A DNA stretch of 64,000 nucleotides, from contig JAGFJJ010000048.1 of the NCBI GenBank assembly GCA_024102815.1, positions 310,001 through 374,000 on the forward strand, in the 5' to 3' direction. Within the stretch, counting starts at the first letter, position 1. Each line of letters begins with the position of its first letter. Shown one piece after another: positions 31,719-50,901 of this stretch. The position numbers and the translations under genes are program-made. A model generated the notes under the pieces. It was not told where the DNA came from. It searched no databases and saw only the letters and a list, made by a program, of their open reading frames with translations. This stretch comes from Phycisphaerae bacterium. Lineage in GTDB: Bacteria > Planctomycetota > Phycisphaerae > UBA1845.

Positions 31719-32285
31719 CTAGTTTCCGTCGTTCGGTCCACCGCGGCCGCGCCCCGGTCCACCACGTCCCCTCCCCCATCCGGGAGGCCCGCCGCCGTCC
31801 GGACCGCCGGGAGGCTCATCAAGCTCGCCACGCCCCCCACGATGTCGCCACGGCGCCCGCGGTCCTCTGCGAACCCCTTCTGCGCAAAGCGAGAGCAGCG
31901 CTCGCCTCTGCTTCGGGTCGAGCTCCTCGCGCAAAGCCAGGATGTGTTCGAAGACGCGGCGCTCGAGTTGATTGTGGGTGTCGATCACCCGATCGATCTG
32001 ATCGCGCAGGGTCTGCTCCGGCGTGGACGGGTCCTCCAGGAGCCGGGCGAAGTCCTCCCGCGTGGCGTCCAGTTGATCCCGGAGTTTGCGGAGATCCGCC
32101 CCGAAGGAAGGATCACGGTCGTGCAGGGCGCGGGCGTCTTCCGGGCTCAGTCCGAGCGCTCTGGCGAGCGGATCGGGTGGCGGCGGAGGGGGGCCGGAGG
32201 CACGAAGCACGACGGTAGCCGCAAAACTGCCCGCGAACAGCACGGCCGACCAGAGGAGCAGACTCCGCGTCTTTGGGGCGATCAT
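31719..32285 (-). CDS. Spy/CpxP-like periplasmic protein with Gly/Arg-rich tail
   Basis: 188 residues. An uncleaved or cleaved N-terminal helix (about 9-30) is followed by a helical core with the LTXXQ-type features of periplasmic metal/stress sensors (ALGLSPEDARALHD ... RVFEHILALREELDPKQRRALLSL). The last ~45 residues are Gly/Pro/Arg-rich, including GWGRGRGGPGRGRGG. It overlaps the anti-sigma gene by four bases, so it belongs to the ECF operon. Role: probably a periplasmic stress sensor or chaperone, by analogy only. Confidence 0.7.
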   Translation of the reverse strand: MIAPKTRSLLLWSAVLFAGSFAATVVLRASGPPPPPPDPLARALGLSPEDARALHDRDPSFGADLRKLRDQLDATREDFARLLEDPSTPEQTLRDQIDRVIDTHNQLERRVFEHILALREELDPKQRRALLSLCAEGVRRGPRAPWRHRGGRGELDEPPGGPDGGGPPGWGRGRGGPGRGRGGPNDGN

Positions 32286-32755
32286 GATGCACCCTCCGCC
32301 TTTTCCTCGAGGTCATCGGCAACGGTAAGAGGAAGCCGCGTCGCGGCGTCCACGAGAAGGTCGTCGGCACCAAGCACCTCCAGCGGAGTCTCCGTCGACA
32401 CTGACGCCGTCGAGGATGACTCCTGGCTCACTGGGATCAACCGCCCCGCGGCGATACCGAGGAGCGCTGCAAACGCCAGCGAGGCGGCCACGCGCAGAAG
32501 GCCGAATTGCCGGGAACCCGGCGTCGGGAATGGGACGGTCTGCTTCCGGTCGAGTCCGGTTTCGATGCGCTCCCACAGGTCGGGCGACTCGGCCGCGTCC
32601 AAATCTACCAATGTCTCCCAAAGCACCGATTGTGACTTCAGCAGCGCCGCGCATCTTGCGCAAGATCTCGCGTGCTCAGTGACCGCTTTCGCCCGGCGAT
32701 CGTCCAGCTCGCCGGCGATCATCTGGATGAGTTCAATTTCGGACGGACAGGACAT
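32282..32755 (-). CDS. Anti-sigma factor (zinc-binding ZAS-type)
   Basis: 157 residues. The ZAS signature His28-x3-Cys32-x2-Cys35 is seen in TEHARSCARC. A membrane helix at about 86-108 (LLRVAASLAFAALLGIAAG) places it in the inner membrane with the zinc domain in the cytoplasm, where it would bind the ECF sigma factor encoded upstream. It overlaps the downstream Spy-like gene by four bases. About 55 bases separate it from the sigma gene. Confidence 0.8.
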   Translation of the reverse strand: MSCPSEIELIQMIAGELDDRRAKAVTEHARSCARCAALLKSQSVLWETLVDLDAAESPDLWERIETGLDRKQTVPFPTPGSRQFGLLRVAASLAFAALLGIAAGRLIPVSQESSSTASVSTETPLEVLGADDLLVDAATRLPLTVADDLEEKAEGAS

Positions 32756-32810
32756 GACAACGGCCTCCGTACTTTGGAACGATCGACCCGCTCGTCGCCT
32801 GCGGGCCGGA

Positions 32811-33380
32811 TCAGGTTTCCGCTTCGTCCGATAGTTCCTCCCGCAGGCGGGCGTAGGCCCGTACCAGCAGCGATTCGACCGACGATTTGCTCCAGCCCGT
32901 GGCGGACGACACGTCCCCCAGGCTCAGCCCCTCGAACCGATGAAGCACCAAAGCCACGCGCTGCCGCTCGGGAAGGCGGTCGACGGCGGCCCGGACGCGC
33001 TCCGCACGATGGGCGGCGCTCGCGCCGTCCGCCGGATCACCACCCTCTCCCTTTCGGTCGTCTACGGCGGGCAGCGAGCCGGGCCGGCGTTTCTTGAACG
33101 CGTCCAGGCAGAGATTGACCACAATGCGATAGAGCCAGGTGGAGAAGCGCGCCGTCGGCTGGTATCGGCCGGCCGATCGCCACACGCGCAGAAACGAATC
33201 CTGGACGATGTCCTCGGCCAGCGCCCGATCGCTCGTCGTGCGGAAGGCGAGTTCGAACACCCGGCGCTGATGGCGACGGACGATCTCGCCCAGCGCGGCG
33301 CGGTCGCTCCGGGCAACGCGCTCCATGAGTGCGGCATCGGGTGTGGGTGAGAGATTGTCGCACTCGTCGGTTCGGTTCAT
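32811..33380 (-). CDS. ECF-type RNA polymerase sigma factor
   Basis: 189 residues with both sigma domains. Region 2 is AEDIVQDSFLRVWRSAGRYQPTARFSTWLYRIVVN (key parts AEDIVQDSFLRVW and FSTWLYRIV). Region 4 is LPERQRVALVLHRFEGLSLGDVS ... VESLLVRAYARLRE. It is the first gene of the sigma/anti-sigma/Spy-like set and presumably directs stress-responsive transcription, including its own operon. Confidence 0.92.
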   Translation of the reverse strand: MNRTDECDNLSPTPDAALMERVARSDRAALGEIVRRHQRRVFELAFRTTSDRALAEDIVQDSFLRVWRSAGRYQPTARFSTWLYRIVVNLCLDAFKKRRPGSLPAVDDRKGEGGDPADGASAAHRAERVRAAVDRLPERQRVALVLHRFEGLSLGDVSSATGWSKSSVESLLVRAYARLREELSDEAET

Positions 33381-33453: not shown

Positions 33454-34950
33454 TCATGCGGAGAGCTTATCGAAGAAAGTCTCGGCCCAGCGGAAGACGT
33501 CATGGTCGCGTACTCCCTTTCGCAAGGAGCTCATGCGGCGGGCCTGTTCACCGTCGGACATGTGCAGGGCCTGTTCCATGGTGGCGATCAAGCCGTCGGT
33601 ATCGTGGGGATTGACCAGCAGGGCCGACTGCATTTCGCTGGCCGCACCGGTGAACTCGCTGAGAACCAGCACGCCGGTGTCGTCGAGCCGCGAGGCGACG
33701 AACTCTTTGGCGACAAGGTTCATTCCGTCGCGGAGCGGTGTCACCACCATGACATCGGCGGCGCGGTACAGCGCCACGAGCTGATCCATGGGAAAGCTTC
33801 GGTGGAGGTAGTGGACCGGCATCATGCCGAGCTGTCCAAACTCGCCGTTGATCTCTCCGACCTGCCGCTCGATCTGGTTGCGCAAGTCGCGATATTCATC
33901 CACACGCTCGCGGCTGGGCACGGCCACCTGCACGAAGACGCACTCCTCCTGCTTGGCCCGTTCGCTGCGAAGCAACTCCTGGTATGCCTTGAGACGAATG
34001 TCGATTCCCTTGGTGTAGTCCATGCGATCCACGCCGAGGAGGATCTTTCGGCGGCCGCTGAGCCGGCGGCGGAATCCCGCGGCCGAGCGCTTCGTCTTGA
34101 TCTCCGCGGCAATCTCCTCGAATCGGCCTACATCGATGGAAATGGGAAACGCCTGGGCGCGAACAGTCCGTCCCTCGTAGTTCATCGACTCCCCGCAGCC
34201 CGATGCGGTGGTGAAATGGCAGCAGCTTTCGACGAAGTTGACGGCGCCGTCATGCGTCTGAAAGCCGATCAGGTCGGCGCCGAGCAGCCCGTCGAGAATC
34301 TGCCGCCGCCACGGAATCTGCGAGAACAGTTCGCGCGGCGGGAAAGGAATGTGCAAGAAGAACCCGATGCGCAAATCGGGACGGAGCTCGCGGAGCATGG
34401 CCGGCACGAGCTGCAGGTGATAGTCGTGCACCCAAACGACGGCATTCTTGGCGGCCGTCTCCGCCGCCGCTTCGGCGAACCGGCGATTCACGTCCACATA
34501 GGGCCACCACCACCGTCGATGGTAGACGGGAGGACGGACCGCGTCGTGGTAGAGCGGCCAGAGGGTGCGGTTGGCGAAACCCTCGTAGAAGCTCTGCACC
34601 TCGTCGCGGGAAAGGGAGAGCGGTCGATTGCGAATGCCCTCGTGATGAAATGCCTTGGGGACGGAGCCGGTGAAACCGGGCCAGCCGACCCACGTACTTG
34701 GGCGGCTTTGCAGGATCGGCCGAAGCGCCGATACCAGTCCGCCCGGGCTCGTTTCCCATACCACAGGCGTTCGCTTGGCGCGGCGCACCGGAAGGCGATT
34801 GGCGACAATGACGATCTGGCCGGTTGATGTCTTGGACAGTGATGGTCCTCCATCCACAGCTTCGCCGGGAAACCGCGGCCCGCGTTCCTGAATCGGCTCC
34901 ACGATATTTCTCGGTTCCTGCACGAGCGTCGTTTCCCTCGGCGACGGCAT
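33454..34950 (-). CDS. otsA: Trehalose-6-phosphate synthase
   Basis: 498 residues. It makes trehalose-6-phosphate from UDP-glucose and glucose-6-phosphate. Motifs: VIVANRLPVRR near 46, TWVGWPG near 85, VWVHDYHLQLVPAMLR near 171, FFLHIPFPP near 197, VDRMDYTKGI near 308 and a C-terminal ... TPLRDGMNLVAKEFV near 417. An N-terminal extension of about 40 residues is unusual but free of motifs. Trehalose is a compatible solute; the next gene upstream encodes a mechanosensitive channel, so the two may act together in osmotic shock. No trehalose phosphatase is in view. Confidence 0.93.
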   Translation of the reverse strand: MPSPRETTLVQEPRNIVEPIQERGPRFPGEAVDGGPSLSKTSTGQIVIVANRLPVRRAKRTPVVWETSPGGLVSALRPILQSRPSTWVGWPGFTGSVPKAFHHEGIRNRPLSLSRDEVQSFYEGFANRTLWPLYHDAVRPPVYHRRWWWPYVDVNRRFAEAAAETAAKNAVVWVHDYHLQLVPAMLRELRPDLRIGFFLHIPFPPRELFSQIPWRRQILDGLLGADLIGFQTHDGAVNFVESCCHFTTASGCGESMNYEGRTVRAQAFPISIDVGRFEEIAAEIKTKRSAAGFRRRLSGRRKILLGVDRMDYTKGIDIRLKAYQELLRSERAKQEECVFVQVAVPSRERVDEYRDLRNQIERQVGEINGEFGQLGMMPVHYLHRSFPMDQLVALYRAADVMVVTPLRDGMNLVAKEFVASRLDDTGVLVLSEFTGAASEMQSALLVNPHDTDGLIATMEQALHMSDGEQARRMSSLRKGVRDHDVFRWAETFFDKLSA

Positions 34951-35002: not shown

Positions 35003-37306
35003 TCACGGCGCCGGCACGCTCCACGGCTGCTCGGACCCGCGGTGGTGCTCGGCCGATCCGTTGGACTCCTCGTAGCGATGGTAGACGGTACGGTGCGGGA
35101 ACGGAATCTCGATGCCCAGCTCGTCGAAGCGCATCTTGATTCGCCGCAGCATTTCGCGTTTCACCTTCCACTGCTGCAAGGGTCGGGTCTTGATGAAAAA
35201 CTTGATGACCACCGCGGAATCGGCGAACGCGTTCACGCCGAGCATTTCCGGCGGCTCGAGTATTAGCAGCTTGAATTCCGGCTCCGCCCGCAGCTCGTTG
35301 GCAACCTGCACCAGCACACTCATCACCTGGTTGACGTCCTCCTTGTAGGCGACGCCGATGTCGAACAGCGCCCGCGACCATCCATGGGTCATGTTGCTGA
35401 CGCGGGTGATTTCGCCGTTGGGGACGAAATGGACGATGCCCTCCAGGTCGCGGAGGATGGTGATCCGCAGGGTGATACGTTCGACCAGGCCGGCCGTGTC
35501 GCCGATCCTGATCACGTCGTTCACACCATACTGGTTCTCGAGCAGGATCATGAACCCACTGAAGTAATCGCGGACCAGATTCTGCGCGCCGAAGGCCACG
35601 GCAAGACCGACGACCGCCGCGCCTCCGAGAATGGGAGCCAGGTCAATGCCCGTTTCGCCGAGCAGCATAATGAACCCGCTGGCGACAATGACGACTGAGG
35701 CCGCGTTGCGAATGACCTGCACGAGCGTTCGCGCCCGGTTCTCCCGCTCGACCATGGACCCCCTGTCGCTACGGGCCGCGATGCGCTTGCTGACGCGCCG
35801 GTCGATCACACCGACCAGCCAGAGAAGCGCAACAACGCCGAGGATGATGGCCAGGACGCGCGGCCCGCGCGTCACCACCCAGGTCCGGAGGTTCTCGAGC
35901 GAGAATGGGTTCTCCAGCTCATCCTTCTTTTGCTGGGCTTGCTCCGCGGCCTTGCGCTCCTTCTCGGCGGTCTTCATTGCCGCGATGCGTTCGCTCTGGA
36001 GCTGGTCCAGCTCCGTCTGGCGCTTGTCGACGCGGGCAATGATGTCGTCGACTTCCTTTTGCGCCTCGACATAGCGCTGATTGGCTTCTTCCGCCTGGGC
36101 CCAGAGCTTGTTGATCTCGTCGGGCTTCGCCCCATCGGCCCACTTGTTTCTTGCCTGCTCGCGAAGCGTCTGTGCGGACTGCAGGGCGTTGGCCCGCTTC
36201 TGGTGGGCCGTGCCGAGAAGCTGCTCGTCCAGCTTGATGAGCTTGCGCAGGTTCTCGATCTGCTGTTCCTTGGTCGTGACCTGCTCGGCCGCCTCCTGGG
36301 CCTTGGCCTGCTTGGCTTCCAGCTCCTCCGTGGCCTTCTTCAGTTCAGGACTCACCGGCTTGGGCGGCGTCGTGGTTCCCGGTTGGGCAGGTGCTGTTCC
36401 GGGAAGCGCGCCCGCAACTGGCGGCGAAACGGGAGGGGTTGCCTGGGCCGGCTGTCCCGAGTTGGCGGACGGTTGGACCTCACCGGACGCCGCAGGATTC
36501 GCCGGCTGCGCCGGGGCCTGGACGGCGGCGTTGGCGTTGCCCGCCAGCGCCCCTTGGGCAGGTTGTTTCTCCGCGGGCATTTCGGCGGGCTTGGTTGTTG
36601 CCTGCTTGTCGCCGGGCGGACCCTCCAGCGCCGCGACGGCATCTTTGTTGGACTTCAGGAGCTTCTCCAGCGTAGGGATCTGCTCGCTAATTGTCTTACG
36701 TTCCTTGAAGACCAGATCGCGCTGCTCGGTCGCCAGGCGCTTCCGTTCGGCCAGATCGTTGACTTCCGATTCGAGCCGGGCGACATCCTCCGTCGCGTTG
36801 GCTTGTTTTGCTTTCTCCAGCGCGGCCGACTTCTCCTCCAGCTCAGTGGTCAGCTTCTGCACTTCGGCGTCGAGCCTGTCATAGTCGGCCTGGGCCCTTT
36901 CGAGTTTCTGGCGCGCGTCCTCGAGCTGCTTCTGCGTCTCCTCGGCGGCGCGGCGCAGGCGGGCGTAGCGTTCGGCCTCCGTCTCTTTGGGGGCGGAAGC
37001 GGACGTGCTTCCCGCGGGTTTGTCGGCGGTTGGTTTCTGGTCGGAAGACTTCTCTCCGCTTTTCGGAGTATCCGGAGGGGGATTGGAAGCGGGTGTTTCC
37101 GGGGATTTCGTTTCCGGCGAAGGCGTTGCTTCTGAGGGGTTGCCGTTTGCGTTTGAAGTCGCGTTCTGATTCGCCGCAGGACCCGATTGGGCCAGGCAAG
37201 GTACCGGCGCGAAGGCGGCGGACAGAATCAGCGCGATCATACCTGCCGCTGTGAAGAAGAGGCGCCTCATCGAGGCCGATGCCAACCGTGTTACTACTCG
37301 TCGCAT
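35003..37306 (-). CDS. MscS-family mechanosensitive channel with long coiled-coil N-terminus
   Basis: 767 residues. An N-terminal signal segment is followed by an Asn/Ser/Pro-rich linker, then long charged coiled coils (about 115-230 and 330-450) around a Pro/Ala/Gln linker. The channel domain is at about 470-740: TM helices (RVLAIILGVVALLWLVGVID, SVVIVASGFIMLLGETGIDL), pore helix AAVVGLAVAFGAQNLVRDYFSG, and NQYGVNDVIRIGD with the beta domain. It opens under membrane tension to release solutes. A second ATG at 37270 is an alternative start that would shorten the signal. Adjacent to otsA. Confidence 0.88.
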   Translation of the reverse strand: MRRVVTRLASASMRRLFFTAAGMIALILSAAFAPVPCLAQSGPAANQNATSNANGNPSEATPSPETKSPETPASNPPPDTPKSGEKSSDQKPTADKPAGSTSASAPKETEAERYARLRRAAEETQKQLEDARQKLERAQADYDRLDAEVQKLTTELEEKSAALEKAKQANATEDVARLESEVNDLAERKRLATEQRDLVFKERKTISEQIPTLEKLLKSNKDAVAALEGPPGDKQATTKPAEMPAEKQPAQGALAGNANAAVQAPAQPANPAASGEVQPSANSGQPAQATPPVSPPVAGALPGTAPAQPGTTTPPKPVSPELKKATEELEAKQAKAQEAAEQVTTKEQQIENLRKLIKLDEQLLGTAHQKRANALQSAQTLREQARNKWADGAKPDEINKLWAQAEEANQRYVEAQKEVDDIIARVDKRQTELDQLQSERIAAMKTAEKERKAAEQAQQKKDELENPFSLENLRTWVVTRGPRVLAIILGVVALLWLVGVIDRRVSKRIAARSDRGSMVERENRARTLVQVIRNAASVVIVASGFIMLLGETGIDLAPILGGAAVVGLAVAFGAQNLVRDYFSGFMILLENQYGVNDVIRIGDTAGLVERITLRITILRDLEGIVHFVPNGEITRVSNMTHGWSRALFDIGVAYKEDVNQVMSVLVQVANELRAEPEFKLLILEPPEMLGVNAFADSAVVIKFFIKTRPLQQWKVKREMLRRIKMRFDELGIEIPFPHRTVYHRYEESNGSAEHHRGSEQPWSVPAP

Positions 37307-37348: not shown

Positions 37349-38014
37349 TCAAGTTCCAAAGGAGTCTCGCGGTAAGGGGGCAAACACGGCGCGTCCCCGG
37401 CCGTCGTCCGACGGATGCCCCGCATTGCTCTGGACGGTGCCGGTCCCTTCCGAAGTGCCGCCAGCCGCTCCGCCCGATGGGCCGTTCCGCGCCCGCCCAT
37501 TGGCGATTGGCTTGCGGTCGCATTCTCCGGAAAGGTGTTCCTGCAAGATAGCCAGCATGCCTGAAAGTTGCGTAAGCTGCTCTCCGCTCAGGGAAGCGAG
37601 CGCCTGGCGCGCGTCTTCGAGGCGCGGCCCCATGACTGCGTCGGTCACTTCGCGCCCGCGTTCGGTGAGCGAGATAAGCACGCCACGACGGTCAGCCGGG
37701 TGCCGGGCGCGCCTTACCAGTCCGGATTCCTCCAGACGGTCGATTCGATTGGTCATGGCGGCGGAGGATAGCCAGACGGCCTGGGACAACTCGGTTGGCG
37801 AGAGGGCATGGGAAGGGCCCGAGCGGCGAAGAGCGCCCAGTACGTCAAGCTGCCACAGGCTGAGGTCGTATTCGGCCAGGAGGCGATTCGTGCGACGTTC
37901 CAACTGATAGGCTACGACGAGAATCCGCCCGATGACCCCCGCGGGCGAATCATCCAGAGCCACTGAAAATTGTGGCTGCCGGCCCTCAACTGAGTCATTT
38001 GGATCCTTTTCCAC
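37349..38014 (-). CDS. MarR-family transcriptional regulator
   Basis: About 221 residues from a GTG at 38014 chosen because the frame further upstream (to 38095) reads through the palindrome described below. The winged helix is at about 40-130: LAEYDLSLWQLDVLGAL, LSPTELSQAVWLSSAAMTNRIDRLEESGLV, RHPADRRGVLISLTERG. A poorly conserved ~45-residue Gly/Arg-rich tail follows. MarR proteins bind palindromic operators as dimers and are released by small ligands. Divergent gene is kamA across the palindrome, so autoregulation and control of kamA are likely. Start is uncertain. Confidence 0.8.
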   Translation of the reverse strand: MEKDPNDSVEGRQPQFSVALDDSPAGVIGRILVVAYQLERRTNRLLAEYDLSLWQLDVLGALRRSGPSHALSPTELSQAVWLSSAAMTNRIDRLEESGLVRRARHPADRRGVLISLTERGREVTDAVMGPRLEDARQALASLSGEQLTQLSGMLAILQEHLSGECDRKPIANGRARNGPSGGAAGGTSEGTGTVQSNAGHPSDDGRGRAVFAPLPRDSFGT

Positions 38015-38034
38015 GCCCGATATGGTAAATGCTC

Positions 38035-38069
38035 GTGTTTCGACGTCAAGTCTCTTGACGTCGAAACAC
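38035..38069. promoter_or_regulatory. Perfect 35-bp palindrome, probable MarR operator
   Basis: Two perfect 16-base arms, GTGTTTCGACGTCAAG and its complement, are separated by TCT. It lies about 20 bases upstream of the proposed marR start and about 220 bases upstream of kamA. Such a site fits a MarR dimer operator. A terminator is unlikely because no T-run follows on either strand. Confidence 0.65.
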
Positions 38070-38290
38070 TTGTCGAATACAACCCAGCGGGACAAAGCCC
38101 AAATCGCTCGCCGTTTTGGCCCTGCTGCGAGCGGTTCCCTTCGCGAACGAGCGGAGCGGCAAGGAGCAACATGCCGCTTTCCGTCGCTTCTGTGTCGTAT
38201 CTTTCAGGCGTGTAACCGCCCGTTCATGCGGGCAGGCCAATACCGCCGCCAATGGGCGATGTCGGCTGCAAGCATCAAGGAGCGATAACC

Positions 38291-39484
38291 ATGACCGACA
38301 CCATCATGAGCCGGCCAATGGAGATCCGCAACGACGGCGTTCGTCGGGTCCGGTACGTCCGTGACCTGGACAAATTGACGCACATCCCAGAGGCGGAACG
38401 GAACCATCTCAAGCAGGTAGCGAAGCGCTATGTCTTCCGGGCGAACGATTACTACCTTGGGCTCATCGACTGGAGCGACCCGCACGACCCCATCAAGCAG
38501 CTCATCATCCCCCGGGAGGAGGAGCTCAACGAGTGGGGGAATCTCGATGCGAGCAACGAGCAGGCCGTGACCGTTACGCGGGGCGTGCAGCACAAGTATC
38601 CGCACACCGTGCTGCTGTTGTGCAATGAAGTGTGCGGTGCCTATTGCCGCTACTGCTTTCGCAAGCGGCTCTTCATGGACGAGAATGACGAGGTCACCAA
38701 CGACGTCTCCGAGGGCATCGCGTACATTCGTGATAACCCACAGATCACCAACGTGCTGCTGACCGGGGGCGATCCACTGCTGATGAGCACACGGCGCCTC
38801 GGCGAGATTCTCGATGCCCTGAGGGACATTGCGCACGTGCGGATTATCCGCATCGGATCGAAGATGCCGGCCTTCGATCCCTGGCGGGTGTTGACCGACC
38901 AGCCCCTGCAGGAGCTGCTCCGCAAGCACTCCCATGCGGACCGGCGCATCTACCTGATGGCCCATTTCGATCATCCGCGCGAGCTTACGGACGTGGCCGT
39001 CGAGGGTATTGATTGCTTCATTCGCAATGGCGTGATCTGCTGTAATCAGTGTCCGATGATTAAGGGCGTCAACGACGACGTTGAAGTGTTGGCTGAACTG
39101 TACCAGCGACTGTCGTGGATCGGTTGTCCGCCATACTACCTGTTCCAGGGCCGGCCGACCGCGGGCAACGAGCCCTACGAGGTGCCCATCGTCCGCGGGT
39201 GGGAGATTTTCCGTGAGGCACTGCGTCGGGGATCGGGACTGGCCCGGCGGGCGAAGTTCGTCATGTCGCACGAGACGGGGAAGATCGAAGTTCTGGCGGT
39301 GGACGATGAGCACATCTACATGCGTTATCACCGCGCCAAGGACCCGGCCAACCGCGGAAAGTTCATGGTATTCCAGCGCAATGATGACGCCTACTGGCTC
39401 GATCATCTCACGCCCGTGGAGGGGAGCGGGGTTCCGCGATTCGCGCCGTACCAATGGCTTGACGTGACCGACGGCCCGGAATAG
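38291..39484 (+). CDS. KamA-family radical SAM aminomutase-like protein
   Basis: 397 residues from the ATG at 38291 (AAGGAG upstream). The radical SAM cluster motif Cys115-x3-Cys119-x2-Cys122 is seen in CGAYCRYC, followed by FRKR. GGDP near 166 is the SAM-binding motif. The PLP lysine is plausible in SHETGKIEVL near 340, in place of the GGGGK of lysine 2,3-aminomutase. The family includes lysine 2,3-aminomutases and EF-P-modifying EpmB. No EF-P gene is near. The substrate is therefore open. Regulation by the divergent MarR protein is likely. Confidence 0.85.
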   Translation: MTDTIMSRPMEIRNDGVRRVRYVRDLDKLTHIPEAERNHLKQVAKRYVFRANDYYLGLIDWSDPHDPIKQLIIPREEELNEWGNLDASNEQAVTVTRGVQHKYPHTVLLLCNEVCGAYCRYCFRKRLFMDENDEVTNDVSEGIAYIRDNPQITNVLLTGGDPLLMSTRRLGEILDALRDIAHVRIIRIGSKMPAFDPWRVLTDQPLQELLRKHSHADRRIYLMAHFDHPRELTDVAVEGIDCFIRNGVICCNQCPMIKGVNDDVEVLAELYQRLSWIGCPPYYLFQGRPTAGNEPYEVPIVRGWEIFREALRRGSGLARRAKFVMSHETGKIEVLAVDDEHIYMRYHRAKDPANRGKFMVFQRNDDAYWLDHLTPVEGSGVPRFAPYQWLDVTDGPE

Positions 39485-50794: not shown

Positions 50795-50901
50795 TGGGAG
50801 CGTCGAGCCGTCGGCCATGCCCACGAGTTGGCAAAGGGCGGCCGGCCCGCTTGGCCGCCCTTTACCAAGCGGTAGTCTCTCGCACTTACGGCTGTCTCAG
50901 G

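Follow-up and report, generated by a model that had tools for sequence, protein, structure and literature searches.

We analyzed a stretch of 64,000 nucleotides of a Phycisphaerae bacterium genome (hereafter, the window), in which a perfect inverted repeat lies between the divergently oriented genes marR and kamA (Table 1). The product of marR belongs to the MarR winged-helix family (MarR_2, 49.6 bits with a cut-off of 27; MarR, 41.9 bits with a cut-off of 24.6), and all 15 NCBIfam matches to a named functional type (MarR, OhrR, HpaR, SlyA and others) were below their cut-offs, the best one reaching 49.7 of 220 bits. After its last conserved part, the protein continues for about 60 residues rich in G, S and R as a C-terminal tail (37352-37534); the MarR proteins of two relatives (genomes G045 and G184) have C-terminal tails of their own. 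The gene otsA is adjoined, on the same strand, by a region (32285-33380) that encodes a sigma-70-like factor (regions 2 and 4), and includes the next gene, with a weak, sub-cut-off zinc-finger match. On the other side, the best solved match of KamA is lysine 2,3-aminomutase (2a5h, E 3.7e-53). The protein reaches the general KamA family model alone: it does not qualify as an AblA equivalog (TIGR03820, 211.5 of 525.4 bits) and is far under the cut-offs for lysine, glutamate and arginine aminomutases. The gene after kamA encodes a VWA/Tad protein.

Table 1. Positions of the genes, the inverted repeat and the predicted regulatory elements in the window
Feature	Position	Strand	Details
otsA-like, trehalose-6-phosphate synthase (GT20)	33454..34950	-	Downstream of mscS; 559.2 bits (TIGR02400 cut-off 564.85)
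mscS-type mechanosensitive channel, long N-terminal part	35003..37306	-	Downstream of marR, same strand
marR, MarR-family winged-helix regulator, 221 aa	37349..38014	-	Pfam MarR_2 E 4.5e-13; GTG start 38014-38012; probably leaderless
marR promoter match	38022..38049	-	-35 TTGACG (38049-38044), 16-bp spacer, -10 TACCAT (38027-38022); consensus match only
Perfect inverted repeat	38035..38069	.	16-bp arms around TCT
Operator unit 1 (TTCGACGTCAAG), predicted	38039..38050	.	Centre 38044.5; matches the CTTGAYRTCAAG unit of marR relatives
Operator unit 2 (CTTGACGTCGAA), predicted	38054..38065	.	Centre 38059.5; 15 bp from unit 1
Possible kamA-side promoter	38055..38083	+	-35 TTGACG (38055-38060), 17-bp spacer, weak -10 TACAAC (38078-38083)
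kamA, KamA-family radical SAM protein, 397 aa	38291..39484	+	ATG 38291; AAGGAG 38277-38282; TIGR00238 199.3 bits (cut-off 199.2)

The inverted repeat between marR and kamA

The initial annotation reported a perfect palindrome with 16-base arms around TCT at 38035-38069, and its coordinates are correct: the left arm GTGTTTCGACGTCAAG (38035-38050) and the right arm CTTGACGTCGAAACAC (38054-38069), separated by TCT (38051-38053), are matched at 16 of 16 positions. We listed the inverted repeats of the window with arms of at least 12 bases, spaced by at most 40 bases, and this was the sole case with 100% complementary arms among 17, as well as the longest short-gap perfect inverted repeat of the window. 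The longest perfect arm was 13 in 100 simulated first-order Markov sequences having the size and the dinucleotide transitions of the window (gap of at most 10; an arm of 13 was found in 4 of the 100), versus 16 in the window itself. Elsewhere in the window, there is a second inverted repeat (50828-50868), with 16-nt arms that are 94% complementary and 9 nt between them.

Across the 5.09 Mb of the genome, 38035-38069 is the only exact occurrence of the arm, the next matches having two mismatches. Of the 197 other class genomes searched for the 27-bp core of the palindrome, with up to 3 mismatches allowed, none contained it. The palindrome is therefore real and unique, and is not a dispersed repeat. 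A perfect inverted repeat is compatible, by its shape, with a repeat element, a transposon end, a terminator or an RNA hairpin. We consider this explanation extremely improbable: in addition to the single copy in the genome and the core found in 0 of 197 genomes, a scan of 37900-38320 yielded no terminator-like sites, there is no terminator-like T-run, and no Rfam family matched anywhere in the window at the gathering score. The palindrome is located upstream of both predicted transcription starts (see below); thus, it should be contained in neither RNA. On these grounds, we rejected a terminator, a repeat element and an RNA hairpin. The initial statement that a terminator is unlikely agrees with these results, and the outcome named at that time as a possible refutation, numerous copies of a repeat element, did not materialize.

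A paired element upstream of marR relatives

Relatives of marR were collected from 5 of 198 genomes of the class (E <=1e-15), 7 of 114 of the order and 18 of 392 of the phylum (both E <=1e-20), each count including the genome of the window. To these we added five named records from actinobacteria (Microbacterium, four; Kribbella, one), and after removal of duplicates the set included 30 marR loci. The upstream regions share an element in which a 12-bp near-palindrome, CTTGAYRTCAAG, is present twice, with the usual distance of 15 bp between centres, for example CTTGACATGAAG-TAG-CTTGACGTCAAG in G521 and CTTCATGTCAAG-AGA-CTTGACGTGAAA in G565. Each arm of the palindrome in the window holds one such unit, TTCGACGTCAAG and its mirror image, with 2 mismatches each to CTTGAYRTCAAG. 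The 35-bp palindrome results from the near-palindromic structure of each unit and the mirror orientation of the two copies.

The significance of the pair was estimated for 20 representatives of the 30 loci (near-duplicates L073, L075, L084, L086, L087, L090, L091, L017, L018 and L019 were left out); it should be noted that these representatives are not independent, as two of them share a genus. The sum of pair scores at the 15-bp spacing was 361 compared to the shuffle mean of 260.0 (sd 4.45, z 22.7), i.e., two sites about 15 bp apart, as a two-dimer operator would contain, are strongly overrepresented. For other spacings between 8 and 40 bp, z was in the range 3.3-12.2, the next best being 26 bp (12.2) and 20 bp (11.9); these values are above zero because the single unit itself is enriched (200 versus 157.9). 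For 16 of the 20 representatives, no more than 2 of 300 shuffles reached their own 15-bp score. Three of these 16 (G259, G292 and G289) do not have a clear 15-bp pair, so that 13 remain; for G260, the score was reached in 6 of 300 shuffles, and L085, L088 and L020 were at the chance level. The enrichment is partly circular, because the consensus was derived from part of the same set. The contrast between spacings and four unread upstream regions escape this circularity. The unit and the spacing were put on record before the upstream regions of G565, G609, G366 and G259 were read, and the 15-bp pair was present in the first three (0, 0 and 1 of 300 shuffles, respectively).

The pair score in the 200-bp upstream regions of marR was 16-23 in 21 of the 30 loci and 12-15 in nine. 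The pair is missing in nine loci, L084-L088 and the four Microbacterium loci (L017-L020). The spacing varies, being 20 bp in G292 and 26 bp in G259. The marR upstream region of L082 (G292:C37) contains a 34-bp perfect palindrome of its own, TCTCGACTTCAAGAT-TTTT-ATCTTGAAGTCGAGA, with units 20 bp apart, and that of L080 (G259:C1162) contains two near-perfect units that together make up a longer inverted repeat (TTATCTTGACTTCAAGATA and its mirror image around 8 bases), with centres 26 bp apart.

We used upstream regions of kamA as a control. Relatives of KamA are present in 38 of 198 class genomes (E <=1e-100), mostly without this marR. Among 27 upstream regions of kamA (200 bp; genomes without a class-level marR match; L022, L033 and L036, in which marR is adjacent, and 8 of the 38 matches, for which no locus was given, were left out), the pair score was 11-17, with 26 regions at or below 15 and one at 17. 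These low scores suggest that the site accompanies marR and not kamA; the pair is found with marR across varied neighbourhoods (kamA, uspA and DUF3891).

These data bear on the possibility that the palindrome is a site of another, unlinked regulator or of a nucleoid protein, and is adjacent to marR by coincidence. Dyads of this kind can also belong to other dimeric regulators, and the nine relatives lacking the pair are in line with this explanation. It is nevertheless very unlikely, given that the pair tracks marR through differing neighbourhoods, that kamA upstream regions lacking a marR match hardly ever exceed the score of 15, and that the double site occurs once in the genome. The recurrence of a dyad-symmetric site in the promoter region of marR itself (21 of 30 relatives) and the preferred spacing support an operator of the adjacent MarR, as originally annotated.

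The original reading, a site longer than a typical MarR operator, can be refined, since the relatives point to two 12-bp units. A single MarR dimer (or tetramer) could be centred on TCT at 38052 and read GTCAAG-TCT-CTTGAC, the outer arms being secondary. We aligned 14 of the 20 representatives (all except L080, L082, L083, L085, L088 and L020) and calculated the information per half-site, which was 6.0, 6.6, 7.3 and 4.9 bits (outer, inner, inner and outer, respectively); these values are inflated, because the 14 rows were picked and aligned by the pair. The two inner half-sites are best conserved, their centres are 10 bp apart (approximately one helical turn), the inner dyad GTCAA-N5-TTGAC is conserved, and a TCAA-N5-TTGA-like core is kept in the marR upstream regions of G045, G095, G193 and G184, which is consistent with one extended operator. 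However, the outer half-sites are informative too, near-complete units are kept in G292 and G259 despite the centre spacing of 20 and 26 bp, G193, G521 and G252 hold one perfect unit each, and the inner half-sites could be conserved by their match to -35 boxes alone. We consider one extended operator rather unlikely; on comparative evidence, the long palindrome looks like two operator units, not one long operator.

We also searched the genome of the window for further sites. The tandem pattern was matched with 2 mismatches at the palindrome only and with 3 mismatches at four other places, all of which are inside open frames of 1,128-2,049 nt (the palindrome is likewise in an open frame). The search for further copies that the initial annotation proposed as a way to find a regulon thus yielded no other double site that was convincing. 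The exact CTTGAYRTCAAG unit occurs once in the genome (G000:C78:20807-20818; L100:1501-1512). It lies close to the 3' end of a 1593-nt open frame, with the GTG start of a 1248-nt open frame following 126 bp later on the same strand, and is a possible second target. A pattern based on the 19-bp inner core was dropped, because it matched 89 places with up to 2 mismatches versus 21 for the reversed control.

Promoter matches and the start of marR

The inner TTGACG of each unit coincides with a match to a -35 box. The marR promoter match (TTGACG-16-TACCAT) and the kamA-side match (TTGACG-17-TACAAC) both agree with the consensus at 9 of 12 positions; the latter has a weak -10 box, in which the final T is missing, implies a leader of about 200 nt and is omitted by a stricter promoter scan. 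We extended this comparison to the 21 site-bearing marR loci (the nine loci without the pair, L084-L088 and L017-L020, were left out): in 19 of the 21, a unit and the best -35 match were in register, which is partly expected because the unit resembles TTGACA. A comparable match that starts in the operator is also seen for the divergent gene in G565, G609, G193 and G095, with 3-4 of 6 positions matched in the -10 boxes. The two -35 boxes in the window are separated by 5 bp. With the usual footprint of RNA polymerase, a clash is expected at this distance, so that only one promoter would be usable at a time. The two promoters probably exclude each other, even without a repressor.

The open frame of marR reaches as far upstream as a TTG at 38095 and, as had been noticed before, passes through the palindrome. 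The proposal to re-set the start to 38014 holds: the GTG at this position fits both the alignment with a relative (the predicted N-terminus MEKDPND aligns with MERDSVD of G095) and the spacing, as it is located 7 nt past the -10 match TACCAT. In 10 of the 21 loci (the window itself, G193, G377, G292, G045, G184, G591, G565, G609 and Kribbella), the start codon follows the best -10 match by 6-7 nt. This short distance suggests that the marR messages are leaderless in these loci; in G474, G546, G517, G420 and G095, the leaders would be longer.

We examined the stretch AMTNRID of the window MarR, which we take to be the recognition helix. Aligned proteins of site-bearing relatives have AMTNR, AMTHR or TMTNR followed by ID or LD, and those of site-less L085 (SITHRLD) and L087 (NLTGIID) diverge. 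The Microbacterium proteins keep AMTNRID, yet the site is missing, which indicates that the recognition-helix sequence and the site are not strictly coupled. The link between the presumed recognition helix and the site is suggestive only.

Stress-gene neighbours and a proposed model of regulation

The neighbours of marR vary among relatives. The gene marR is divergent from uspA-mscS-otsA in G565, from uspA-mscS in G095, and from uspA in G045, G184 and G591, with kamA and an aminotransferase gene downstream of marR in the latter three genomes; the divergent neighbour in G193 and G609 encodes a DUF3891 protein or its homologue. At least one of uspA, mscS, otsA and kamA adjoins marR in 6 of the 7 order genomes that have this marR. 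Around marR of 11 more distant relatives from the phylum (some on short contigs), a blastp search for these four genes yielded one weak mscS match (G521). The stress-gene neighbours in close relatives suggest that a local osmotic/stress cluster is the likely target of the site. Trehalose synthesis and a mechanosensitive channel point to osmotic stress as the role of this cluster.

Several known systems can be compared. In systems of the HucR and PecS type, the gene for the MarR-family protein is divergent from the gene that it controls and the operator is in the shared promoter region; likewise, the window marR is divergent, and the predicted operator lies between divergent genes. The known targets of HucR and PecS differ from the neighbours found here (mscS, otsA, kamA and uspA). 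Chain 2fbk, presumably HucR, is among the sequence matches of the window MarR (E 6.8e-12); the solved chains 8ylf (E 8.5e-27) and 8ylh (E 4e-26) are much closer, and the literature search found no paper on them. No chain named Rv2887 was among the matches of the window MarR to solved chains. A literature search for a MarR protein with TTGACATCAA found nothing, and a search with six site sequences, in which hits were judged by the title and the start of the abstract, found none on a MarR operator.

As described for Rv2887, a MarR-family protein of M. tuberculosis, two dimers bind the Rv0560c operator, covering 15 bp each, on nearly opposite faces of 30-bp DNA (PMC5526998). This solved arrangement resembles the units of the window, centred 15 bp apart. 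It should be noted that the stretches bound by Rv2887 are one palindromic and one not, and indirect readout was proposed (PMC5526998), whereas both units of the window are near-dyads. In another article, the abl genes of Methanosarcina mazei are described as salt dependent, and derivatives of beta-lysine as osmolytes made via lysine aminomutase in methanogens (PMC1224877). What the window shares with ablA/ablB, which are responsible for synthesis of N-epsilon-acetyl-beta-lysine, is an aminomutase of the KamA family in an osmotic setting; the difference is that kamA of the window is followed by the VWA/Tad gene and that its product scores below the aminomutase cut-offs. By this analogy, the window KamA may be linked to osmolytes of the beta-lysine type.

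Taken together, the palindrome is most likely a double operator of the adjacent MarR, with two units 15 bp apart over back-to-back promoters. One MarR dimer would bind each unit in a two-dimer mode and, once on the site, MarR would keep RNA polymerase from using either promoter, resulting in autorepression and repression of kamA, until a ligand or a stress signal frees MarR. The leftward promoter would read marR, followed by the same-strand genes mscS and otsA, presumably as one operon, marR-mscS-otsA, and the rightward promoter would read towards kamA. A broader scenario is tentative, and we would not bet on it: a MarR subfamily without a curated name might guard a changing locus (uspA, mscS, otsA and kamA) by means of a symmetric double operator, the inner half-sites of which double as -35 boxes for a pair of mutually exclusive promoters; release of the repressor would then open a choice between leaderless marR/mscS/otsA and kamA.

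This kind of system is already known, and no new mechanism is required; the locus is a recurring example with a neat geometry. For a group of MarR proteins that reaches no curated NCBIfam type, the result supplies a binding motif and a spacing that can be tested. The shared design of the -35 boxes and half-sites renders competition between promoters directly testable, and the likely targets are a small stress set that includes a channel, a trehalose synthase, an aminomutase and a universal stress protein.
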